A stretch of 64,000 nucleotides of DNA, from the NCBI RefSeq assembly GCF_002162315.1, contig NZ_CP021416.1, positions 930,001-994,000 on the forward strand, written 5' to 3'. The notes beneath the pieces were generated by a model that saw nothing but the letters and a program-made list of their open reading frames with translations, did not search any database and had not been told where the DNA came from. This stretch comes from Sulfurospirillum diekertiae (GTDB lineage: Bacteria > Campylobacterota > Campylobacteria > Campylobacterales > Sulfurospirillaceae). How positions within the stretch are numbered: position 1 is the first letter of the stretch; every line of letters starts with the position of its first letter. Both the position numbers and the translations under genes were made by a program. Shown one piece after another: positions 41,130 through 52,798 of this stretch.

Positions 41130-41828
41130 TTAATTGTAGCTTCTGATGTAAAAGACTTTAGGTTTTGTGCCTTTTTCAGGGAGCAATACCGTTGGTTTAT
41201 TTGCTTTCAATGTTGTTGCAATTTGACTTTTCTCATCATTGAGATCGCCAAATATACGTGCATCTGCTGGACAGGCTACGACACATGCAGGCGCAAGTCC
41301 TTGCGCGACTCTGTGGTTACAGAAGGTACACTTTTCAACCGCACCTTTACGCCTTACTGCTTCATAGCCACCAGCACCTCGTGCCGCATTAAAGTTAGGG
41401 AAGGGTGCTTTTGATTTATCGCTAAGCTCTTTTTTCGAGAACGTTCCACCTTTGACGATACTACTATCATCGGTTACATAATCCAAGAAAGCGTGCTCTT
41501 TATTGAAGAAGATAACACCATAAGGATCAGCCAACATACAGCTTTTACATCCGATGCAAAGGCTTGGATCATGCACCACAAATCCCTCTTCTGTTTTATG
41601 CATCGCCTGCGTTGGACAGACTCGCACACAGGGAGCATCTTCACAGTGGTTACAAAGAGTTGGCGTATGGGTATAAGTAACTTTTGGGAATACACCATAC
41701 GTTTCGATTTTATGACTTGCCCAGTCAATACCATCTGGCGTATTGTTTTCACTTTTACATGCAAGATCACATGCACCGCATCCCACGCAACGATGTAGGT
41801 CAATAATCATTCCATATTTTTTTGCCAT
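41130..41828 (-). CDS. Four-cluster ferredoxin subunit (ArrB/PsrB-like)
   Basis: 232 residues, RBS GAAGGATAAAC. Cys motifs for [4Fe-4S] clusters: 'CVGCGACDLACKSENN', 'CNHCEDAPCVRVCP', 'CIGCKSCMLADPYG' and 'CTFCNHRVAQGLAPACVVACP'. In the third motif the usual CxxCxxxCP has 'LADP' in place of 'xxCP', so one cluster is missing a Cys. The N-terminus 'GMIIDLHRCVGCGAC' and 'CKSENNTPDGIDW' strongly resemble ArrB. It transfers electrons between the catalytic subunit and the membrane NrfD-type subunit. Confidence 0.8.
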   Translation of the reverse strand: MAKKYGMIIDLHRCVGCGACDLACKSENNTPDGIDWASHKIETYGVFPKVTYTHTPTLCNHCEDAPCVRVCPTQAMHKTEEGFVVHDPSLCIGCKSCMLADPYGVIFFNKEHAFLDYVTDDSSIVKGGTFSKKELSDKSKAPFPNFNAARGAGGYEAVRRKGAVEKCTFCNHRVAQGLAPACVVACPADARIFGDLNDEKSQIATTLKANKPTVLLPEKGTKPKVFYIRSYN

Positions 41829-41842
41829 TGTTTATCCTTCAC

Positions 41843-44401
41843 CTATATCTTTTCGATTTTTACACGAGTATGTCCACCATGTCGTGGGTTTGAGCCACTA
41901 AGGCGCTCCCAGTCATAACAATATAAATCGTTGTTATTACCACCACGAGGTTTTGATCCAAAGATTTCTGACCCTACGCGACCATATGCCCAGTGACCTT
42001 GTCCGTAACATTTAGCGACAGTTCCAGGACGGATACCTTCCCAGAGTTTGATCTCACTTTCAATGGTTCCAAACATGGAGATAACACGAACTTTATCGCC
42101 GTTTTTAAGTCCTAATTTTTTACCATCAAGCGGATTGAGTTTTGTGACATCTTTTTCATTTTCATCACCTGGATCAACACTTTTTGTACTGTAATACCAA
42201 GGAGTATTTTGACTTCTTCCTTCACGATTAAGGCGTGAACGGTGGTCGATAAAAATGAATGGATACGTTGTTTCATCCCCATAGCGTACCGCTGGTTCAT
42301 AGTGTGGTACAAAGAATTGCTCACCTTTAACCGTATAATTTGCAGCTTCAATGGCTTCATCAAGCGTCATTTTATGCTTATCAGCATGGTTTTGCATTCC
42401 CGCTTTAAGCGTTTCACTGAAAAACTCAAATTTATGGGTTGCTGTATGGAAATGACCGATTTTTTCGCCAATTTTGTAGCGTTTTGTTTTCCAAATGCCT
42501 TTTTCAAGTAACTCAGCCCAGCTATTTATCGTATCACCTTTGCTATTACTGCTACCATCCCAACAAGGTTTAGTGAAGAATTTTGTTGCAAAAAAATCAA
42601 ATTCCTCAGCGGTTTCAGGTGTTTTGCCAGTTTCTGGGTCTTTGAAATTCTCTTGATAATATTTCAGAGGTAAATCAAAACCTTTTTTTGCGAGTGCTTG
42701 AGCGAGCATAAATGGCACTTCTGTTTCATCTGTTTTGGCCTCCCCGTAAGGCTTGATAAGCGGTTGATGAACAGAGAGGTAGGCTGTCAAGTTTTGTTTA
42801 TTTTTAGCAAATCCATAACGCTCAAGCATGTGCATCTTTGCTGGTAATACGATGTCTGCAAACATTGTCATCTCTGCAATATTGGTTGTAATATGGGCAA
42901 AGAATGGTAATTTTGACATTGCTTCTTCCCATTGTTTTGTTCCCATAGAAGAGAAGACCCAGTTGTTCCAATAACCAATTGCCATTTTGATGTCATACGG
43001 ATCTTGATCAAGCATGGCTTGTGCAACCCTTGAGGTACACACAAATCCACCCGATTTCATGTGCTCAAGTGCAGGAAACCCTTTGGTTCCTCGCTGATCG
43101 ATTTTTGGTTTTTTCAAACTGTCAGCAAAACGAGGATCAATGTAAGGCTTCACATCAGGTGTTTTAGCAGTTGGTGCTGAACCTTGTTGCAAGATACCGC
43201 CAACGGAATCAACGGAGCCTACAAGTCCATTAAGAGCATGGCATGCAAAGGAAGAGATGCCTCCTCTTATTTGCATAGAAGCGCCTGGACTTGTCCATGA
43301 AATGGCTCTATTGCCAGCTTCCGCAAATTCACGAGCTACTTCACGAATCTCTTTGGCGCTAATACCCGTAATTGGCTCCGCCCACTCAGGAGTACGATCT
43401 TTCAGCTCTAAATTCCACCATGCAACAACACCATTGGTATGAATTTCATTAAAGACTACAGGAATCTTTTTATCTTCGACAATAATTTCTGTTGGAACTT
43501 CTTGTCCTACAACAAAATAGTTGACTTTATCGGCAAAATCACCTACAAAATCTCTGTTCCATTTGCCCTCAGAAAGAATAACATGTGCAATGGCAATAGC
43601 GAGTGCTCCATCGGTTCCTGGAATAATAGGTAACCAACGATGTGATTTAGCTCCCGTAGCGGATAGACGAGGATCAATCGTCGTGATTTTAGCTCTATCT
43701 TTAACATTTCCAAATTGGTTGATAAACCACGGTGTTTGACGATTTGATGCAACCATATCTGAACTCCAACCCAAAATATAACGAGTGTTTTGAAGATCAA
43801 AGTCAGCATACGCCGGATAGCCCTCAGATTGTTCGCGTCCAAACTCTTCGGCATCAGCACATAAAGCACTGTGTGAAATGTTATTTGGGCTACCAATGAG
43901 TTTTGGAAATGTTCCATACATGATTTCATTCATACCAGTGTAACGACCACGGGTTAAAAGGAATTTGTGTGTTTCGCCTGCATTAATAAGTTCCATAATT
44001 TTATCGGCGATGGTATTGATCGCTTCATCCCATGAAATAGGTACAAATTTAGGATCAATACCTCTTCCTTTTTTAGGATTGGTTCGTTTTAGTGGTGTTT
44101 TAACACGATCAGGATCGTACACTTGTTGCAATGCTAAATGTGGACGTGGACAAATGCGTCCACCACTTGGTGAGTTGGGATTGCCTCTGACTTTAATGAC
44201 TTTGCCATCAACCACAAGTCCTTGAATGCTACACCAACTTGTACATCCTTGACAGGTTGAAGCTACCCATTTGCCTGCTTCACCCTCGTAACCCAGTTCA
44301 CCTGTTTTTGCTTCGACTTCTTCTGGAAAAATAGATATGGTTGAAGCTACCGCTGCTGTTCCAGCTGTTGTTTTGAGAAAATCTCTTCTGTTAATACTCA
44401 T
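41843..44401 (-). CDS. Molybdopterin oxidoreductase catalytic subunit, ArrA/PsrA clade (probable respiratory arsenate reductase)
   Basis: 852 residues from ATG 44401, 6 nt after AAGGAG; a longer frame from 44437 lies upstream of the RBS. Tat signal 'NRRDFLKTTAG'. [4Fe-4S] motif 'CQGCTSWC' plus 'GRICPRPH' (Cx2Cx3Cx26C). 'LKRTNPKKGRGIDPKFVPISWDEAI', 'LTRGRYTG', 'PNNISHSALCADAEEFG' and 'VDPGDEN' closely resemble ArrA sequences, including the RGRY element. Polysulfide/thiosulfate reductases (PsrA/PhsA) are the main alternative. Gene order C-A-B, a PhnD-like sensor system and nearby aio/ars genes favour arsenate. No TorD-like chaperone gene is present. Confidence 0.7.
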   Translation of the reverse strand: MSINRRDFLKTTAGTAAVASTISIFPEEVEAKTGELGYEGEAGKWVASTCQGCTSWCSIQGLVVDGKVIKVRGNPNSPSGGRICPRPHLALQQVYDPDRVKTPLKRTNPKKGRGIDPKFVPISWDEAINTIADKIMELINAGETHKFLLTRGRYTGMNEIMYGTFPKLIGSPNNISHSALCADAEEFGREQSEGYPAYADFDLQNTRYILGWSSDMVASNRQTPWFINQFGNVKDRAKITTIDPRLSATGAKSHRWLPIIPGTDGALAIAIAHVILSEGKWNRDFVGDFADKVNYFVVGQEVPTEIIVEDKKIPVVFNEIHTNGVVAWWNLELKDRTPEWAEPITGISAKEIREVAREFAEAGNRAISWTSPGASMQIRGGISSFACHALNGLVGSVDSVGGILQQGSAPTAKTPDVKPYIDPRFADSLKKPKIDQRGTKGFPALEHMKSGGFVCTSRVAQAMLDQDPYDIKMAIGYWNNWVFSSMGTKQWEEAMSKLPFFAHITTNIAEMTMFADIVLPAKMHMLERYGFAKNKQNLTAYLSVHQPLIKPYGEAKTDETEVPFMLAQALAKKGFDLPLKYYQENFKDPETGKTPETAEEFDFFATKFFTKPCWDGSSNSKGDTINSWAELLEKGIWKTKRYKIGEKIGHFHTATHKFEFFSETLKAGMQNHADKHKMTLDEAIEAANYTVKGEQFFVPHYEPAVRYGDETTYPFIFIDHRSRLNREGRSQNTPWYYSTKSVDPGDENEKDVTKLNPLDGKKLGLKNGDKVRVISMFGTIESEIKLWEGIRPGTVAKCYGQGHWAYGRVGSEIFGSKPRGGNNNDLYCYDWERLSGSNPRHGGHTRVKIEKI

Positions 44402-44411
44402 CATTGACTCC

Positions 44412-45251
44412 TTATACTGCTTGACCGAGATAGACAACTAAGTTTTTGAGGAAAAAGCTTCCCGCAACTATGATTGCGAATGTTGGAATCGCTACTGCTT
44501 TGAGGGATAGTTTGTTTAGAATAACCAATGTAAAAATGGCTAAAGGTGCGATTAACCCCATTAAGATGCTTAGTGCCCAAAACTCCATGCTAAAGTTACT
44601 GATGAGAACATCATAGGCATGTTTTGAAGATGCGGTTGTTAACGCTAAGTTGTAAACCCATGCAAAAACAGCGGCTAACTCAAGGGTTAAAACCATGTTG
44701 ATGATGAGGGGGAGTTTAAAGCGTGCCACAAGGTTTTCTAAGCTTCTCAGATTGAAAAGTACCATGAGCGATGCACCTGAAAGAATAGACGAAACAAAGA
44801 AAATCACAGGAATAGCGTTGTTCCAAGGTTCTTTTGCGATGCCAGAGAGCAAAAATCCATGATACAAACCAACGAGACCTGCAAGAACTGCACCAGCGTA
44901 AACGATTTTTGAGCTAAGTGATGAAACACCACTTGTCAATACTTTAAAGGCGATAAATAGCGCAACTGCTACAAACGCACTTTGTAAAAAGATACCGATT
45001 GACATAAATGAGGTTGGATTAACCGCATAGATCGTTTTAATAACGTTCAATGGACGTCCAAGTTCTGTAAGTAGTAGCAGTAATCCTGCTATCACCAAAA
45101 GCGGTGCAACAACAAATGATTTTTTGACGAAACCATCGTAAACTTTTGCATCCACATAGTAAAGTATAACCCCCACGAGGAAGGCACCTACACCTAAACC
45201 ACCTAAAAACAGATCGAGCGAGACCCGTATATCCCACAACAAATGCATCAT
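44412..45251 (-). CDS. NrfD/PsrC-family quinol-interacting membrane subunit (ArrC-like)
   Basis: 279 residues with eight predicted transmembrane helices; starts 'MHLLWDIRVSLDLFLGGLGVGAFL', the typical NrfD N-terminus. It anchors the catalytic and ferredoxin subunits and exchanges electrons with menaquinol. First gene of the three-gene operon, 10 nt ahead of the catalytic subunit. The sigma-54 promoter at 45301-45317 lies 50-66 nt upstream. Start may be either of two consecutive ATGs (45251 or 45248). Confidence 0.82.
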   Translation of the reverse strand: MMHLLWDIRVSLDLFLGGLGVGAFLVGVILYYVDAKVYDGFVKKSFVVAPLLVIAGLLLLLTELGRPLNVIKTIYAVNPTSFMSIGIFLQSAFVAVALFIAFKVLTSGVSSLSSKIVYAGAVLAGLVGLYHGFLLSGIAKEPWNNAIPVIFFVSSILSGASLMVLFNLRSLENLVARFKLPLIINMVLTLELAAVFAWVYNLALTTASSKHAYDVLISNFSMEFWALSILMGLIAPLAIFTLVILNKLSLKAVAIPTFAIIVAGSFFLKNLVVYLGQAV

Positions 45252-45300
45252 GGACTCCTTTAAAGTTTTTTGAACTTTTCTTCAAGTACAATGTGCTAAC

Positions 45301-45317
45301 TGCAATTAATGTGCCAA
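45301..45317 (-). promoter_or_regulatory. Sigma-54 promoter of the arrCAB-like operon
   Basis: Minus strand reads TTGGCAC-ATTAA-TTGCA: a full match to the -24/-12 consensus TGGCAC-N5-TTGCA. The -12 element ends at 45301, so transcription should start near 45290, giving a leader of about 40 nt before the ATG at 45251. An NtrC-type activator is encoded 2.3 kb away on the other strand (47604-48986). Confidence 0.88.
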
Positions 45318-45370
45318 CTTTTAAAATCCCTAGAATAGGGACTTCAAGAGAAAAAAGGAGCTTTAAAGAG

Positions 45371-46243
45371 ATGAAAAACGATCAAGTTTTGACCAGTGCC
45401 TTTCAAAAATTTACCATGCTTTTTTTACTACTATTGTTGCCTTTTTCACTCTATGCCAAAGAAAAAATTGTTTTAGGGTTAACAGGAACTGTCTTAAAAG
45501 ATGATCTTAAAAATTTTATGGATTGGGAAAAATATTTGGAGAGTAAAAATAGTGATTTTGATATACAAATACGTTTTACCAAAACGTATGCGGAGATGAA
45601 TACACTCATCAAAGAGAATAAAGTCGACGTTGCTTATATTTGTAACTCCAGTTATACAAAACTCGACAAAGATGGCACAGGTAAAATTTTAGCAATCCCC
45701 ATTTTTGATGGAAGTGATCAGTATTACTCTTATATAATCGCCAAAAAAAGTAGCCGATTTACGTCCTTATCAGACTTCAAAGATGCTATTTTTGCCTTTA
45801 CCGATCCTGAGAGTAATTCAGGAGCAACAGCTCCAAGCTACTATATGATAAACCATAACATGGATCCTAAAACATTTTTCAAATCTTACATCTATACGTA
45901 TGAGCATGGCGAGTCGATTAAAGCTGTGATTGATGGTTTTGTGGATGGTGCAAGTGTAGATAGTATAGTTTATACCCGTTTTACACAAAAGTGTCCAGAG
46001 CAGATTGAGCAACTTAAAATTATTCAGGTCTTAGGACCTTATACCAATTCTCCTATTGTAGCGAGAAGTTCATTGCCTAAAAAGCAGTTTGATATGTTAC
46101 AACATGCCTTTGCAACAATGCATTTAGACCCTTATGGAAAAAGCATTTTGGAAAAACTTTCCTTAGATCGCTTTGATCTCCCCTCTGGTCAAGATTTTTC
46201 CAACGTGGCCAAAATGCTTGAAGTCATTGAACAGAGACAATGA
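45371..46243 (+). CDS. PhnD-like periplasmic oxyanion-binding sensor protein
   Basis: 290 residues from ATG 45371 (AAAAAGGAGC upstream); an ATG-less extension to 45293 would overlap the sigma-54 promoter. Signal peptide 'LFLLLLLPFSLYAKE'. 'VLGLTGTVLKDDLKNFMDWEKYLE', 'VAYICNSSYT' and 'FTDPESNSGATAPSYYM' are features of PhnD/phosphonate-type binding proteins, the fold of AioX and ArrX-like sensors. Its gene overlaps the kinase by 4 nt, so it most likely presents an oxyanion (arsenate, arsenite or a sulfur oxyanion) to that kinase rather than feeding a transporter. Confidence 0.8.
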   Translation: MKNDQVLTSAFQKFTMLFLLLLLPFSLYAKEKIVLGLTGTVLKDDLKNFMDWEKYLESKNSDFDIQIRFTKTYAEMNTLIKENKVDVAYICNSSYTKLDKDGTGKILAIPIFDGSDQYYSYIIAKKSSRFTSLSDFKDAIFAFTDPESNSGATAPSYYMINHNMDPKTFFKSYIYTYEHGESIKAVIDGFVDGASVDSIVYTRFTQKCPEQIEQLKIIQVLGPYTNSPIVARSSLPKKQFDMLQHAFATMHLDPYGKSILEKLSLDRFDLPSGQDFSNVAKMLEVIEQRQ

Positions 46244-47607
46244 AAAAACTCATTGACTATCTTTTAGCACTCTCTGTTCAAGTTAAACTTGCCACACTCA
46301 TTTTTTGGGTTGTTTTTGCCATCTCTTCGGTTTCTATTGTTATTAATATCGACATTCATAAAAACCATACCAATCAGATCATTGATGAGCTTATTAAGAC
46401 CAACATTAACTCTAACAAAGCCTTTGTCAGCGAGTTTATCCTTACCCATAATCAATGGGAGCTTTACAAATTTCTCAAAACATTGAGTTCCAGCAGTATG
46501 ATTGAAAGCTCAGGATTTATTGACACTCATAATGTCATTGTGGCGCATACCGATACGGAACATTATCGTCTTGGTGATACGTTTAAAGAGTTTGACACTT
46601 ACAATGTTGTTCCTTTTGAACAAGATGGGGTGACTTTTGGCTCTTTTGTGCTTAAGGTCAAAAATCAAACGCTTTTTAGCATGTTACAAGATACCTTTTT
46701 AGCACAGTTTGTACTTCTTCTTATGGTGGCACTTCTTTCATTAGTGATTGCCAATATTTTTATGGGAAGGCTTTTAGGACGACTTCATCTACTCTCCAAT
46801 AATGCACAAGCAATTATCGAAAAGCGTTGGGATGACATTACGATTTATCAAGGCAAAGAGAACGATGAAATCACACGTATTATTGAAAAAACAACGCAAT
46901 TAATGCATGAGCTGCGAGACTCTATCGAAAAAGAGGAGAAGAACGCTCGCATTTCGCACTCACTTATTATCTTGGGAGAAATTGGTTCCTCTTTTGCGCA
47001 TGAAGTTAAAAATCTACTACAGCCTTTAAAGTTGTTGCTTTCTCCTGCCCAACTGCCCGACAAAGAAGATATGCCCATCATTCATGGAGCATTAGCGCGC
47101 ATCGATCATCAGGTTGTGGATTTTTTAGCCCTTGCCAAACCCGCTGACTTCAAGTACGAAAAACCTTTACATGTAAAGCCATTGGTTGAAGAGTCTATCG
47201 CATTATTGCGTTCTTCTTTGAATAAAAAACATTTAACGATTCAGAACATCGTTGAAGAGGATTTATACGTTAAAATGGGAGCGAATGCGATTGAAATTAT
47301 TTTGATAAATTTACTCAATAACGCCATCGATGCAGCGTTTCAACTGAGTAGTATTGAGATTACATGGAAGAGGGCAGAGCAAGCAGGATTTTCCATCTTG
47401 TGTGTGAAAAACAGTGGTGAAACCATGGATGAAAAAACCAAAGCCAATCTGTTTAAACCCTTTTTTACCACAAAAAAAGAGGGTTCTGGCTTGGGGCTTT
47501 TTAGCATCTATAAAATTGTCTATCTCTCCAATGGTTATATCGAGTTTGAAAGTCAGAACAATCAGACAACATTTTGTTTATATTTCCCATGCGAAGAGGT
47601 TTTATGA
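46240..47607 (+). CDS. Membrane sensor histidine kinase of the oxyanion-responsive system
   Basis: 455 residues. TM1 about 13-35, periplasmic domain of about 110 residues, TM2 'FVLLLMVALLSLVIANIF', HAMP-like linker. HisKA motif 'SSFAHEVKNLLQPLKLL' and HATPase motifs 'NLLNNAIDAA' and 'GSGLGLFSIYKIV' are intact. Organisation (binding protein-kinase-NtrC regulator) parallels AioXSR. Overlaps both neighbours. Confidence 0.85.
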   Translation: MKKLIDYLLALSVQVKLATLIFWVVFAISSVSIVINIDIHKNHTNQIIDELIKTNINSNKAFVSEFILTHNQWELYKFLKTLSSSSMIESSGFIDTHNVIVAHTDTEHYRLGDTFKEFDTYNVVPFEQDGVTFGSFVLKVKNQTLFSMLQDTFLAQFVLLLMVALLSLVIANIFMGRLLGRLHLLSNNAQAIIEKRWDDITIYQGKENDEITRIIEKTTQLMHELRDSIEKEEKNARISHSLIILGEIGSSFAHEVKNLLQPLKLLLSPAQLPDKEDMPIIHGALARIDHQVVDFLALAKPADFKYEKPLHVKPLVEESIALLRSSLNKKHLTIQNIVEEDLYVKMGANAIEIILINLLNNAIDAAFQLSSIEITWKRAEQAGFSILCVKNSGETMDEKTKANLFKPFFTTKKEGSGLGLFSIYKIVYLSNGYIEFESQNNQTTFCLYFPCEEVL

Positions 47608-48986
47608 AAATTGCCATTATTGATGACCAACAAGAGATTCGCTACTCAGTTGCTAAAATTTTACAGCGCAATCAGCATATACCGTTACAGTTTAATGGTG
47701 AAGAGTTTGAACTCTCTTTAATCATCGAAGAGCAAGGGGTTGAGCTTTTAATCGTCGATGTCATGCTTGGCGAAAATCTTACAGGCATTGATTTGATCAA
47801 GCAGTTTAAAAAAGTAGGACTTAACCTTCCCATTATCTTGATGACGGCGTATACGACACCTACGAATATGATCGAAGCGTCCAAAATTGGCATTAAAGAC
47901 ATTTTGCAAAAGCCCTTTGATGAAGCGCAACTTTTAGAGTTGGTGGGAAAATACATGCACACTTCAAGCAAAGAGAAGAGTGCTAAAAAACCGATCAAGC
48001 AAGGTGAAGAGGCGTTTGTAGGTTCTTATGAGACGATGAAAGAGATCTATAAAAAAATTGGCATCGCCGCCAATAATGATCTTGCTGTGCTCATTTACGG
48101 CGAAACAGGAACGGGAAAAGAGCTGATCGCCAATCTCATTCATACCAACTCTACGCATGGGGAGCACCCTTTTGTTGCGGTTAACTGTGCGTCTATTCCT
48201 AAAGAGCTTTTTGAAAGTCAGCTTTTCGGGCATGAAAAGGGCTCGTTTACCAGTGCCGATAAACAGCACATCGGGTATGCTGAGCAAACAGGTGAAGGAA
48301 CGCTCTTTTTAGACGAGATTGGAGAGCTTGATATTGAGCTTCAAAGCAAACTATTGCGTTTTTTAGAGACAAAAAAGTTCAGGCGTGTAGGAGGCTCTAA
48401 AGAGCTTAATTTTGAAGGACGCATTATCAGTGCGACCAATGCCAATCTTAAAGCACAAAGTCAGCAAAAAAGTTTTCGTGAAGACCTTTACTTTCGCCTC
48501 TCTATGCTTACGATTACGATGCCAACACTGAAAGAGCGGATTCAAGATATTCCTATCTTGTGCGAACATTTTATCGCTAAAGCCAATCGTGATCTTAAAA
48601 TGACCATAACGTCAATTTCCGAAGAGGCGTTGGTTAAACTTGCACGCCATCATTGGCGAGGCAATATTAGGGAGCTGCGCAATACGATTTACAGCGCGTG
48701 CTTAAACGCTAGCGATGCGATGATCAAAGCGGATGACATTAAAGAGTTTGAAGACGCATCGCCGTGTGAAAAGCAGACACTAGAGCAATTTTGTCGCGAT
48801 TTTTTAGAAAAAGAAGGTGTTGAAAAAGCGCATGAACTGGAGCAAATGATGCAAAGATCTCTTTTACATGTAAGCTTTTCGCTTTGCCCCAACATCACAC
48901 AGCTTTCTACCATACTCGATATTTCTCGCAATACACTCAAGAAACAGCTGAAGGAATTTAATCTTTACCAAGATGATAGTGATTAA
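47604..48986 (+). CDS. NtrC-family sigma-54-dependent response regulator
   Basis: 460 residues from ATG 47604, overlapping the kinase stop (ATGA). Receiver: 'IIDD', phospho-acceptor Asp52 in 'LLIVDVML', Lys in 'LQKPFD'. AAA+ domain: Walker A 'GETGTGKEL', 'FGHEKGSFTSADKQ' in place of GAFTGA, Walker B 'GTLFLDEIGEL', 'ATNANLK' and 'FREDLYFRL'. C-terminal Fis-type HTH ('NITQLSTILDISRNTLKKQLKEF'). Expected to activate the sigma-54 promoter at 45301. The sigma-54-contacting loop is GSFTSA rather than the GAFTGA consensus; Phe and Thr are kept. Confidence 0.9.
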   Translation: MKIAIIDDQQEIRYSVAKILQRNQHIPLQFNGEEFELSLIIEEQGVELLIVDVMLGENLTGIDLIKQFKKVGLNLPIILMTAYTTPTNMIEASKIGIKDILQKPFDEAQLLELVGKYMHTSSKEKSAKKPIKQGEEAFVGSYETMKEIYKKIGIAANNDLAVLIYGETGTGKELIANLIHTNSTHGEHPFVAVNCASIPKELFESQLFGHEKGSFTSADKQHIGYAEQTGEGTLFLDEIGELDIELQSKLLRFLETKKFRRVGGSKELNFEGRIISATNANLKAQSQQKSFREDLYFRLSMLTITMPTLKERIQDIPILCEHFIAKANRDLKMTITSISEEALVKLARHHWRGNIRELRNTIYSACLNASDAMIKADDIKEFEDASPCEKQTLEQFCRDFLEKEGVEKAHELEQMMQRSLLHVSFSLCPNITQLSTILDISRNTLKKQLKEFNLYQDDSD

Positions 48987-49043: not shown

Positions 49044-49730
49044 ATGATCACAGCACATCATCTCAAAAAAGTCTATCAGACAGGCGAGATACGTCAAGAA
49101 GTTATCAAAGATTTGTCTTTAGAGATTAGCGAGGGAGAATTTATCTCTTTAGTTGGGCCTAGTGGAAGTGGAAAAAGCACTGTACTAAACATGCTTGGCT
49201 GTCTTGATACCCCAACCAATGGCGAGATTGTTATCAACAATACTTCCACCACGACCATGAATCGAACGCAAAGGGCTAACTTTAGAGGTGAAAACATTGG
49301 TTTTATTTTCCAAAGTTTCAATCTTATTCCAGTTTTGAGTGTGTATGAAAATGTTGAGTATCCTCTGATTATGATCCAAAACCTTCCCGAAGAGGAGCGA
49401 AAATCACGGGTACTTACGTTACTTGAGGAGGTTGGGATGTTGGATCATAAAGATAAAACCCCTGATAAAATCTCAGGCGGTCAGATGCAACGTGTTGCCA
49501 TAGCAAGAGCACTCGTGACCAATCCTAAAATTGTCTTTGCAGATGAACCTACAGCGAATCTTGATACCAAAACAGCGCATATGATTATTGAGCTGATGAA
49601 AAAAATTCAAAGAGAGCATCAAACGACGTTTGTGTTTGCAACACATGATGAAAAAATAGTCTCCAATGTGGACAGACTTATCACCCTTGTCGATGGTGAA
49701 ATTGTAGCAGATCAAAGGATGAACAAATGA
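49044..49730 (+). CDS. LolD/MacB-type ABC transporter ATPase
   Basis: 228 residues, RBS AAAGGGGAAAGG. Walker A 'GPSGSGKSTVLNML', Q-loop 'IFQSFNLIPVLSVYENVEYPL', signature 'KISGGQMQRVAIARAL', Walker B 'IVFADEPTANLD', H-loop 'VFATHD': a standard LolD/MacB ATPase. Start of a four-gene plus-strand operon (to 52798). The permease start overlaps its stop by 4 nt. Confidence 0.85.
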   Translation: MITAHHLKKVYQTGEIRQEVIKDLSLEISEGEFISLVGPSGSGKSTVLNMLGCLDTPTNGEIVINNTSTTTMNRTQRANFRGENIGFIFQSFNLIPVLSVYENVEYPLIMIQNLPEEERKSRVLTLLEEVGMLDHKDKTPDKISGGQMQRVAIARALVTNPKIVFADEPTANLDTKTAHMIIELMKKIQREHQTTFVFATHDEKIVSNVDRLITLVDGEIVADQRMNK

Positions 49731-50965
49731 ACAATATCCTTAAAATATCCTATCGAAATCTCAAACGAAACTATCGAAGAACGCTTCTAACGGCTTCCCT
49801 TATTACGATAGGGGTCATTTTTGTGCTGATCTACACGGCGATGTCAGGGAGCTTTAAAAGTTATACGGTTGGGCAGATTACTGATTCTTTAATGGGGCAT
49901 ATTCAGATACACAAAAAAGGGTATGTGGCTTCTGTCGACAATCTTCCTTTGGATAAAAATCTTAATGCAAAAATGTTAGAGTTTATCGAATCGAAGCTAG
50001 AGTCCAATCCTTTTATAGAGAGTTACAGCTATCGCATCAAGTTTGGTGCAATGTTTTCTAACTTTACCAGTACGACCAACATCAGACTTAACGCGATTAA
50101 TCCTAAAGATGAATTTCCAACGTTGCCACTCCTTGAAAGTCGAATTTCTGATATGAATGGTACTTTTAAATCAGGCGAAATCATTGTTCCTGAACTGCTT
50201 ATCAAAGGGATGGATGTCAAAATAGGCGATACCATCGTCTTGGTTGCCAATAACAAAAATGGCTCCGTCAATGGCATTAACCTTAAAGTTGCAGGTATCG
50301 TGGGGCAAGTCATGGGACCTGGAGGACGTGATGGGTACATTCACATCGAAGATGCCAAAAAGGCACTGCGAATGAACAATGAACTTGAGATCAGTGAAAT
50401 CGTCCTTCGCCTAAGAGACGTAGAAAAACTGAGAGTTGCAGAAAAATCACTTCAGCCACTCTTGGAAAAACTCAATAAAGAGGGAAAGCCTGTTTTGGAA
50501 ATTCATACATGGCAGCAACTCTCTCCTTTTTACAACATCATTAAGATGATTGATGTTATGAATATTTCGATTCAAATCATCCTTATCTCTATTGTCCTTA
50601 TCTCCATCCTCAATGTGATGATCATGAGTGTGTTTGAGCGTGTCCGAGAAATAGGAACCATTGCGGCTATGGGCACACCGCCTTTGACCATCGTCAAACT
50701 TTTTTTATGTGAAGGCTTGATGCTAGGCGTGTTTGGGGCGGTTGTGGGAAGCATCTTGTCTTTGGGGATTGTTTATCTTCTCAATATTGTCAAAATTACC
50801 TATAGCATCGGGCAACAAAGTGGTCTTATTTTAACACCGAGCTTAGGAATAAATGAGATACTTAGTGTAAGTATCATCGTTATTTTTATCTCACTCGTTG
50901 CGTCCATATCTCCCGCCATCAAAGCTTCAAGACTTGATCCTGTTGAAGCTTTACGTACCTATTAG
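49727..50965 (+). CDS. FtsX/MacB-type ABC permease
   Basis: 412 residues. N-terminal helix ('LLTASLITIGVIFVLIYTAM'), large periplasmic MacB-PCD domain (about residues 40-270), three C-terminal helices with 'FERVREIGTIAAMGTPPLTIVKLFLCEGLMLG', and terminal 'ISPAIKASRLDPVEALRTY', the FtsX-family ending. Pairs with the ATPase at 49044. Substrate probably a periplasmic or lipidated factor; the LolA-like gene next to it supports lipoprotein handling. Confidence 0.85.
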   Translation: MNNILKISYRNLKRNYRRTLLTASLITIGVIFVLIYTAMSGSFKSYTVGQITDSLMGHIQIHKKGYVASVDNLPLDKNLNAKMLEFIESKLESNPFIESYSYRIKFGAMFSNFTSTTNIRLNAINPKDEFPTLPLLESRISDMNGTFKSGEIIVPELLIKGMDVKIGDTIVLVANNKNGSVNGINLKVAGIVGQVMGPGGRDGYIHIEDAKKALRMNNELEISEIVLRLRDVEKLRVAEKSLQPLLEKLNKEGKPVLEIHTWQQLSPFYNIIKMIDVMNISIQIILISIVLISILNVMIMSVFERVREIGTIAAMGTPPLTIVKLFLCEGLMLGVFGAVVGSILSLGIVYLLNIVKITYSIGQQSGLILTPSLGINEILSVSIIVIFISLVASISPAIKASRLDPVEALRTY

Positions 50966-50974
50966 GAGCACACC

Positions 50975-51691
50975 ATGAAGAAGATCATACTTTTTTTACT
51001 CACAACGCTAGCACTCTTTGGTGCGGAGAGCATTTTAGAACAAGTGGATAAAAAGCTCAGTCCAAGTTCTGCGGATAGCTATAAAAAACTCATTAACATC
51101 GAGCCTGATGGGAGCAAAAAAGAGTTTTTGCTTTATCAGATCAAAAAAGGTAAAGATAAAATTGTCTCGTTGTTCTTACAGCCTGACAGTGAAAAAGGCA
51201 GGAGTACACTGAGATTGGATGAAAATATGTGGCTTTATTTGCCCGATGTGGGCAAGCCCATTCGCATTACGTCTATGCAAAGTGTTGTGGGCGGTGTGTT
51301 TAATAACAGTGATATTATGCAACTCGATTTCTCGGCTGAATATGACATCAAAAGCCAAACAGATGAGGGTGCTACGATTGTTTTAGATTTGAAAGCTAAA
51401 AATGAGACGGTTGCATACGATAAATTGTTGATGGAAGTGGATAAAAAAACAGTGACACCGACAAAAATCGCCTGTTATACTTCTACGGGGATGCTCATAA
51501 AAACGCTCTACTACAAAGATATGAAAGACTTTGGTGGTGGCATCGTAAGACCTGCGGTGATTGAGACGGATTCGCCACTGTATAAAGGCTACAAGTCCAT
51601 CATGGTGTATGGAAAAATAACAGCGCGTGAGTTTGCCGATGAGATGTTTACCATCGAAAACATTGGCAAAGTTCAAGAGTTTCGAAAATAG
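50975..51691 (+). CDS. LolA-like outer-membrane lipoprotein-sorting protein
   Basis: 238 residues, signal peptide 'IILFLLTTLALFGAE'. 'EFLLYQIKKGKDKIVSLFLQPDSEKGRSTLRLDENMWLYLPDVGKPIRI' is the conserved block of the LolA-like/DUF4292-type family that accompanies MacB-like transporters. The predicted half-barrel fold would accept lipid or lipoprotein substrates. It is coupled to the next gene with no spacer. Confidence 0.75.
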   Translation: MKKIILFLLTTLALFGAESILEQVDKKLSPSSADSYKKLINIEPDGSKKEFLLYQIKKGKDKIVSLFLQPDSEKGRSTLRLDENMWLYLPDVGKPIRITSMQSVVGGVFNNSDIMQLDFSAEYDIKSQTDEGATIVLDLKAKNETVAYDKLLMEVDKKTVTPTKIACYTSTGMLIKTLYYKDMKDFGGGIVRPAVIETDSPLYKGYKSIMVYGKITAREFADEMFTIENIGKVQEFRK

Positions 51692-52798
51692 ATGAAATCT
51701 TTACATGTAATTCTTTTTGCAGCAGTTTTGGGAAATGCAGGAGATTACGATTTTGACCTTGATGCCATCGAGGTCAAACCCTATACATTGAGTGGTTACC
51801 TTAAAGGTGAAAATAAACTGCAAGGCTTAAATGAAGACTCACCTCTGTTTCATACCAAAAACAAAGAGAGCATGAAGAGCTATGGCAGTGAAGGTGATTT
51901 AAAATTTGCTTACTTTCAAGATGCCATTAAACTTGACTCTGAAGTGATGGTGAATTACAACGATGTCGATAGAGAGTACAGTGATGCTTACACTATTGCA
52001 CAACTCTTCGTGCAGTACAAGTTTGATCAAAATAATCTTATTGAGGTCGGTAAAAAAGCGCCTAAATGGGGCAAAGGCTACTTCGTCAATCCCATCGCTT
52101 TTTTTGATCGAAAGAAAGACCCAAATGACCCTGATGCTTCGCGTGAAGGGTATGTGATGGCGAATTATCGGTATAACAAAAGCTACGATGGGGATGTGAG
52201 AAATGTCTCGTTGGATCTCATTGTGATGCAAAACAATGACCATATAAACAGTGATTTTAGCCAAAAAGATGAAAATAATGTAGGGGTTAAAGCCTATTTT
52301 CTAGCGTATGATACGGATATTGATCTTATCTATTATCATCGAAGTGAGCAGAGCGATAAAATAGGGCTGGATTTTTCTAAAAATATTCAAACGAACATTG
52401 AAGTACATGGAGAGTTTGCTAAAACACTGGGCGCGGATGATTATGCGTATTTGGTGGGGTTAAAGTATTTAACGGCATTTGAGCTCAGTATTACCAGCGA
52501 GTATTTTTACCAAAAAAATCAGAGCAGCAAGTCCGAGCCTTTTTTTGATCATCAGTATTTTATGAATAAGTTTTCACAAAAAGAGCCCTTTAATTGGCTG
52601 TATGGGTCTCTTTACTATAAAAATATCTACAACCTCGAAGATAAGTCGATGCAAAACTCTTTTGGCGCAACGTACAGCTTTAAAAACAATATGCTTTTAG
52701 ATATTTCATACAATATGAACGATGGTCAAATAGGCTCCGAATACGGCTCTAAACTGGTTCAAGATACGTTATGGACAAAGCTGTATTGGTATTTTTAA
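51692..52798 (+). CDS. Predicted outer-membrane beta-barrel protein
   Basis: 368 residues, starting at the base after the preceding stop. Short signal peptide ('LHVILFAAVLGNAG'). The rest has alternating polar/hydrophobic strands with aromatic ends ('YTIAQLFVQYKF', 'VSLDLIVMQNN', 'ELSITSEYFYQKN') and ends '...LVQDTLWTKLYWYF', a C-terminal Phe as in barrel substrates of BAM. It resembles DUF1302/alginate-export-type porins loosely. Probably the outer-membrane partner of the ABC/LolA-like set. Codon 4-6 region carries a TTACATGTAA palindrome. Confidence 0.6.
   Translation: MKSLHVILFAAVLGNAGDYDFDLDAIEVKPYTLSGYLKGENKLQGLNEDSPLFHTKNKESMKSYGSEGDLKFAYFQDAIKLDSEVMVNYNDVDREYSDAYTIAQLFVQYKFDQNNLIEVGKKAPKWGKGYFVNPIAFFDRKKDPNDPDASREGYVMANYRYNKSYDGDVRNVSLDLIVMQNNDHINSDFSQKDENNVGVKAYFLAYDTDIDLIYYHRSEQSDKIGLDFSKNIQTNIEVHGEFAKTLGADDYAYLVGLKYLTAFELSITSEYFYQKNQSSKSEPFFDHQYFMNKFSQKEPFNWLYGSLYYKNIYNLEDKSMQNSFGATYSFKNNMLLDISYNMNDGQIGSEYGSKLVQDTLWTKLYWYF

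Follow-up and report, generated by a model that had tools for sequence, protein, structure and literature searches.

A predicted sigma-54 promoter before the arrCAB operon of Sulfurospirillum diekertiae, compared with AioXSR-type arsenic-sensing circuits

XSR sensing modules have been described for the aio, arx and arr gene clusters, and for the first two an RpoN promoter as well (Badilla 2018, PMC5908839). For AioR a circuit of this type has been described and for ArxR one has been predicted; the epsilonproteobacterial ArrR was assigned, like these two regulators, to the AtoC family (PMC5908839). The locus studied here resembles the AioXSR/aioBA system of Rhizobium NT-26 and its relatives in having a PhnD-like protein, a kinase, an AtoC/NtrC-family regulator and an RpoN promoter (here a predicted one) before a molybdoenzyme (PMC5908839). 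It differs in that the Rhizobium NT-26 module senses arsenite and controls oxidation, whereas our locus has an enzyme of the ArrA family, an NrfD-type subunit, a Campylobacterota host, the regulator loop GSFTSA and a putative binding site unlike the one there. With ArxXSR/arxB'ABC of Alkalilimnicola ehrlichii it shares the XSR genes, a regulator of the AtoC family and a predicted RpoN promoter, there tggcaaggctattgct (PMC5908839), but ArxA of that organism is an anaerobic arsenite oxidase; the regulatory role of arxXSR had not been demonstrated as of 2019, according to the available part of a paper of that year (PMC6549141). The third system is ArrXSR/arrAB of Chrysiogenes arsenatis, presumably the source of the closest solved relative of our sensor, an ArrX. 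The ArrX of this system binds arsenate with a Kd of about 1 uM, but its ArrR is CitB-like and lacks the AAA+ domain, and no RpoN promoter was detected there (PMC5908839).

The main text of Badilla 2018 (PMC5908839) contains neither the word sigma nor the word Sulfurospirillum, and neither rpoN nor sigma54 is mentioned in the available text of a review from 2019 on how respiration is regulated in Campylobacterota (PMC6682613). A search of the open-licence literature returned neither a report of sigma-54 control of arr nor a Sulfurospirillum arr start site that had been mapped. The control logic as such is already known for arsenite oxidation and was to be expected for the Sulfurospirillum group; the arr locus described below would add to this known type of circuit, an addition that is well supported by comparison between genomes.

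The window, that is the whole stretch of DNA that was analysed, comprises 64,000 nucleotides (positions 930001-994000) of a single-contig genome of 2,876,536 bases (2.88 Mb). On its minus strand, TGGCACATTAATTGCA (45301-45316) matches TGGCAC-N5-TTGCW exactly and is the only such match in the window; with the leading T added it becomes the 17-mer TTGGCACATTAATTGCA (45317..45301), or TTGGCAC-N5-TTGCA. Within it the GG of the -24 element (45315-45314) and the GC of the -12 element (45303-45302) lie 10 bp apart, forming the GG-N10-GC core of a sigma-54 promoter. The last base of the site is separated by 49 bp from the ATG of arrC (45251), and transcription of arrCAB is predicted to start at about 45290. 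The exact consensus on the minus strand upstream of the operon, at a spacing of about 50 bp from its first gene, had been proposed in the first-pass annotation and is thus confirmed. When the window is described by a first-order Markov model, 0.078 exact matches are expected per 64 kb; for the intergenic region, 119 bp long, the expectation is about 1e-4. Genome-wide, the pattern was found four times and its reversed control not at all, the three remaining matches being located inside coding sequences and the arrC site being the only one outside. A chance origin of the site was rejected on the basis of this expectation and of its being the sole non-coding exact copy. When one mismatch was allowed, four sites were found in the window against 2.25 expected, and 148 places in the genome against 67 for the reversed control, so that the weaker matches of the window are regarded as noise and single weak matches mean little.

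The operon begins with arrC (44412..45251, minus strand), which codes for a 279-residue membrane subunit of the NrfD/PsrC type (PF03916 NrfD, 79 bits, above cut-off). It is followed on the same strand by arrA (41843..44437), the molybdopterin catalytic subunit with a Tat signal (TAT_signal) from about residue 15, whose first listed start is a TTG at 44437, and by arrB (41130..41828), a 4Fe-4S subunit of 232 residues with Fer4 domains that scores 301 bits with NF041715 (ArrB; cut-off 450). The arrA product was by far best matched, among 23 families, by the ArrA model NF041714 (E=0, 1066 bits, residues 14-864 on positions 2-848 of 848), the next being PhsA with 247 bits. Among solved structures the best relative was 6cz7, which we take to be the ArrA of Shewanella ANA-3, with E=1.9e-281 and 940 bits, compared with 171 bits for the thiosulfate/polysulfide-type 2vpw. 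As the score of 1066 bits lies under the curated ArrA cut-off of 1600, we call the protein ArrA family by sequence and not a certified arsenate reductase. By this classification the arrCAB product is an arsenate respiratory reductase and not a polysulfide reductase: the first half of the earlier label "ArrA/PsrA-like" holds, and a polysulfide/thiosulfate reductase (PsrA/PhsA) was rejected on the two pairs of scores above.

Divergently from the operon, on the plus strand, three genes code for a periplasmic oxyanion-binding sensor of the AioX/ArrX family (arrX, 45371..46243, 290 residues from its ATG), a membrane histidine kinase (arrS, 46240..47607, 455 residues, AtoS/ZraS-like, with HATPase_c and the H-box HEVKN) and a response regulator of the NtrC/AtoC family (arrR, 47604..48986, 460 residues from its ATG, in a longer ORF that starts at 47574). 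Gene calls and domain searches thus bear out the PhnD-like protein, kinase and NtrC-type regulator noticed at first pass. The best solved relative of ArrX is the ArrX structure 6x6b (E=2.6e-41), presumably that of C. arsenatis, followed by AioX. The seven AioX pocket residues considered (Tyr88, Cys106, Tyr131, Ser161, Ser163, His192 and Asp210; PMC5908839) are all present in ArrX of the window and in 13/13 relatives. Because an ArrX/AioX-type sensor keeps the complete pocket, an arsenic oxyanion would be expected as the signal rather than thiosulfate or polysulfide, and arrX-arrS-arrR is, as judged from its sequence, an arsenic-oxyanion sensing module of the AioXSR type. ArrR carries a receiver domain (PF00072, 65 bits) and a sigma-54 interaction AAA+ domain (PF00158, 215 bits) with the Walker motif GETGTGKE. 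Its L1 loop reads GSFTSA, identically in the 12/12 family members read (window included), and departs from the canonical GAFTGA at two positions while keeping the Phe and Thr of the motif. The three other clear enhancer-binding proteins of the genome, FlgR among them, read GAFTDA, which indicates that the fifth position of the motif is not strictly Gly in this lineage.

An arrA gene is present in 13 of the 44 genomes of the family, our own included. The X-S-R / C-A-B arrangement is unchanged in the relatives wherever the contig reaches; arrX, arrS and arrR all adjoin arr in 11/12 of them, the twelfth (G041) having a contig that ends inside arrX, and in G029 the arr locus is divided between two contigs. 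Comparison of the 13 family intergenic regions (window included) showed that the GG at -24 is invariant, that GG-N10-GC is kept in 11 and that the full 16-base consensus occurs in 4. The site is therefore "perfect", as it had been called, in this genome, but the exact consensus is not what evolution keeps. The core stands out also in mean pairwise identity, which is 1.00 and 0.92 for the -24 and -12 dinucleotides versus 0.51 for the spacer. The two deviating members differ at -12 and both have rpoN: the fragmented genome G041 has GG-N11-GC in a run of T, and G043 has GG-N10-GT. When G361, a genome of another family, is added, GG-N10-GC is found in 12/14 intergenic regions of XSR-bearing arr loci in rpoN-containing genomes. 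Variants of the form TGGAAC in relatives are still plausible promoters, since the sigma-54 consensus of Campylobacter jejuni is GGaa-N6-tTGCTt (PMC3847290).

Three further elements of the arrX-arrC region may belong to the control of the locus. The dyad GRTCAA-N3-TTGAYC (45380..45394), centred at about -97 from the predicted start and located inside the first codons of arrX, has 10 of its 15 columns invariant in 13 genomes, though the start of arrX is poorly conserved, and the more distant G361 has GGTAAA-N3-TTTACC at this place. We regard it as the best candidate for an upstream activating site of ArrR, inferred from its conservation, part of which could be coding as the dyad itself is. It occurs exactly at two places in the 2.88-Mb genome, one being the arr locus; the second copy (2516420) was rejected as an ArrR target and taken as chance, since it lies close to where a small ORF ends and inspection by eye recognised no arsenic gene around it. 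A second dyad, TCCCTA-N3-TAGGGA (45327..45341, centred at about -44), lies between arrX and the -24 element, just upstream of the latter, with the counterpart TCCCTAAATTTAGGGA in G361; it may be an operator or a hairpin in the arrX leader. The third element is AAGTACAAT (45284..45292, plus strand), a candidate sigma-70 -10 element for the divergent arrXSR genes inside the arrC leader, where 8 of the 10 columns of the block 45281-45290 are invariant. It fits the Campylobacterota -10 sequence gnTAnaAT, which has no -35 (consensus from PMC3847290). A scan for sigma-70 promoters of the E. coli type did not list AAGTACAAT and was uninformative for arrX; in the arrC sense it gave no site in the intergenic region, and a promoter of that type for arrC was rejected.

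The genome contains two rpoN genes, 44% identical to each other (G000:C1:1491283 and 1255901; loci L045 and L046), one of them near a nifX-like gene, and two copies were also found in 10/10 other genomes of the genus tested. Four clear enhancer-binding proteins are encoded, one of them beside an Fe-only nitrogenase. The statement that sigma-54 is known chiefly for flagellar genes is fair for C. jejuni, as far as the available text of PMC3847290 goes, but does not describe the genome of the window with its two rpoN genes and four such activators. The respiratory use of sigma-54, regarded as noteworthy in the first-pass annotation, would move this factor in Campylobacterota from flagella towards respiration by way of a concrete predicted promoter. 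Its noteworthiness was nevertheless somewhat overstated, because the AioR and ArxR circuits are of the same kind and Badilla 2018 had placed the epsilonproteobacterial ArrR with them (PMC5908839); with the circuit type known and thus foreshadowed, the novelty is moderate.

A phylum-wide scan found ArrA in 13 of 397 genomes, three of them from other families (G361, G204 and G222). rpoN is present in 14 of the 16 genomes tested, including 13/13 other XSR-type arr genomes from the same family or G361 (counting G041, whose contig ends inside arrX); the two without it are G222, which is Arcobacter cryaerophilus LMG 9065, and its congener G051. In G361 the XSR genes, a regulator with the GSFTSA loop, the promoter TTGGAACGCTTTTTGCC and both dyads are found. 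In G204 arrCAB is present but XSR is not, its place being taken by genes for a chemoreceptor and for a binding protein of the PstS type, and no GG-N10-GC precedes arrC there. Arcobacter cryaerophilus carries both XSR and arrCAB, and a search of its genome gave no rpoN match; RpoN loss in Arcobacter is reported in the available part of PMC9321776. No GG-N10-GC was found before its arrC, and its ArrR (L053 4631-5989) has an unrelated stretch in place of the GSFTSA loop, with Walker A and B intact. This regulator appears to be an enhancer-binding protein retired from sigma-54, and in having lost the sigma-54 loop it is similar to the NtrC proteins of Caulobacter and Rhodobacter that lack GAFTGA (PMC10274813), whereas ArrR of the window keeps a GAFTGA-like loop. 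A sigma-54-less lineage that has the same sensor and operon and lacks both the promoter core and the regulator contact loop represents a natural experiment, one confined to a single lineage, as ArrA occurs in 1/104 genomes of the Arcobacter family, that of G222.

The association was then compared across ArrA loci from many phyla. Of 329 ArrA relatives found in named genomes, the best 80 were carried forward, and the test was made on the 71 whose upstream sequence reaches 1200 bp or more. The nine left out have too short an upstream region and include L110, with a one-mismatch site and no readable regulator. Sense sites with at most one mismatch were found at 14 of the 29 loci with an ArrR relative and at none of the 42 without (Fisher P=3.2e-7, the loci sharing ancestry), a regulator being counted here by an uncurated tblastn match of more than 200 aa, with some matches lacking GAFTGA by pattern. 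The antisense control gave 3/29 and 1/42, and the reversed pattern 0 and 0 in the sense and 1 and 0 in the antisense orientation. No upstream site within one mismatch was found at the other 15 of the 29 regulator-linked loci. Both Sulfurospirillum-type loci of the set (L055 and L056) are without one, their sites differing by two or more bases. ArrX without an ArrR-like regulator was seen in 15 of the 80 loci, in line with the CitB-like ArrR described elsewhere by Badilla (PMC5908839). The comparison points to a wider rule, according to which sigma-54 sites are frequent at arr operons linked to an AAA+ regulator of the ArrR type and missing from the others; such a rule would help to predict when arsenate reducers in sediments switch on arsenic mobilisation. 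In two bins of Denitrovibrio (L097 and L100), ArrX-like and ArrR-like proteins are encoded and sigma-54 sites lie 32-42 bp before arrA, which contrasts with the listing of arrXSR as absent from Deferribacteres in the available text of PMC5908839.

According to the reading we prefer, with a probability of about 0.88, the site is the promoter of arrCAB, read by sigma-54 polymerase and driven through ArrX, ArrS and ArrR. In the periplasm, the ligand of ArrX would be an arsenic oxyanion, arsenate being the likeliest, and the signal would pass via the kinase ArrS to ArrR, presumably by phosphorylation. Once phosphorylated, ArrR would bind about 97 bp upstream, at the GRTCAA-N3-TTGAYC dyad, and the L1 loop GSFTSA of its AAA+ ring would remodel the closed complex of sigma-54, presumably containing one of the two RpoN proteins, at the -24/-12 elements, so that arrCAB is transcribed. 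The arrXSR genes would be transcribed divergently, probably from the candidate sigma-70 promoter overlapping the arrC leader. The circuit proposed at first pass, from periplasmic sensor through kinase and NtrC-type activator to a sigma-54 promoter and a respiratory operon, is thus supported by the comparative evidence. One could also imagine that a sigma-70 promoter drives arrCAB and that ArrR activates it without sigma-54, in which case the -24/-12 match would be a relic or a coincidence. The two departures of the loop from GAFTGA would suit this idea, NtrC of Caulobacter and of Rhodobacter capsulatus, which lacks the motif, does act at sigma-70 promoters (PMC10274813), and the Arcobacter ArrR probably works in this way. 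However, the Phe and Thr of the motif are kept in all 12 family members read, the -24/-12 cores are conserved and the spacer is not, core and loop are both missing from the lineage that lacks rpoN, and the sigma-70-type scan of the intergenic region gave no arrC-sense site; we therefore consider such a promoter improbable. It is still harder to credit that another enhancer-binding protein, FlgR or the NifA-like one, drives the promoter and places arr in the flagellar or nitrogen regulon. The genome does have three further clear proteins of this class, but arrR adjoins arr in all relatives whose contigs reach that far, and a dyad at about -97 present at only two places in the genome is typical of a dedicated local regulator.

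The identity of the substrate leaves somewhat more room for doubt, as the promoter may be real and the operon may serve another oxyanion, not arsenate or not arsenate only. ArrA of the window is 50.6% identical to 6cz7 across the aligned chain and keeps Cys193, presumably the molybdenum ligand, with its flanking motifs, as well as the conserved Arg165, His189 and Tyr210. It differs, however, in having Glu in place of Lys198, a residue five positions after Cys193 that we take to be substrate-binding, and Pro in place of the Trp at 208. Of the 79 readable named ArrA sequences from the best 80 of 329, 69 have Lys at position 198, 9 have Asn and 1 has Glu, and 78 have Trp at position 208; the single sequence with both Glu and Pro (L055, genome G032) itself belongs to the window clade. 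The six genomes of this clade (G000, G019, G017, G021, G032 and G033) read CADAEEFGREQ.EGYP.Y instead of the usual CAEAEKFGRYYTEG.W.Y. At the DNA level, the window matches G028, G018 and G012 with 78-94% identity across arrXSR, arrC and the first part of arrA, as far as about 43,900; the value falls to 62-78% over the remainder of arrA and rises again to 81-87% in arrB. As the drop is confined to this part, arrA of the window clade looks replaced from about residue 180 to the C-terminus (41843-43900), apparently by exchange of a segment; it is this part that carries Glu198 and lacks Trp208. The changed loop, the apparent replacement and the ArrA and ArrB scores below the curated cut-offs all favour a different substrate; against it stand the same ArrX pocket in window, relatives and AioX and the four conserved catalytic-chain residues named above, and on balance we consider it unlikely that arsenate is not the substrate or not the only one. 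A related suggestion, put forward tentatively, is that in at least six Sulfurospirillum-type genomes the regulatory half was kept as an arsenic-sensing sigma-54 circuit and the catalytic half was exchanged, an arsenate-induced promoter now perhaps controlling an enzyme that differs in substrate preference, direction or affinity.

Some minor observations were made in the neighbourhood of these loci. The locus with the Fe-only nitrogenase (L041 5540-11174) contains anfD and anfK, whose scores both exceed the curated cut-off; an enhancer-binding protein of the NifA-like kind is encoded near them. The arrX-arrC gap of Arcobacter (L053 8650-8800) contains, by eye, an apparently broken Tat-signal reading frame. 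Beside arrCAB of G204, the PstS-type binding protein is encoded together with a methyl-accepting chemotaxis protein (L052 6068-8454), and a similar arrangement was seen by eye in L051 (12961-15445); the G204 pair might possibly be a chemoreceptor for arsenate or phosphate. Finally, arrR of the window is followed at 49044-52798 by genes for a LolD-like ATPase, a permease, a LolA-like protein and a fourth protein without Pfam match, and the same four genes adjoin arrR in three relatives (L026, L028 and, in a broken form, L030) and in part in a fourth (L031).
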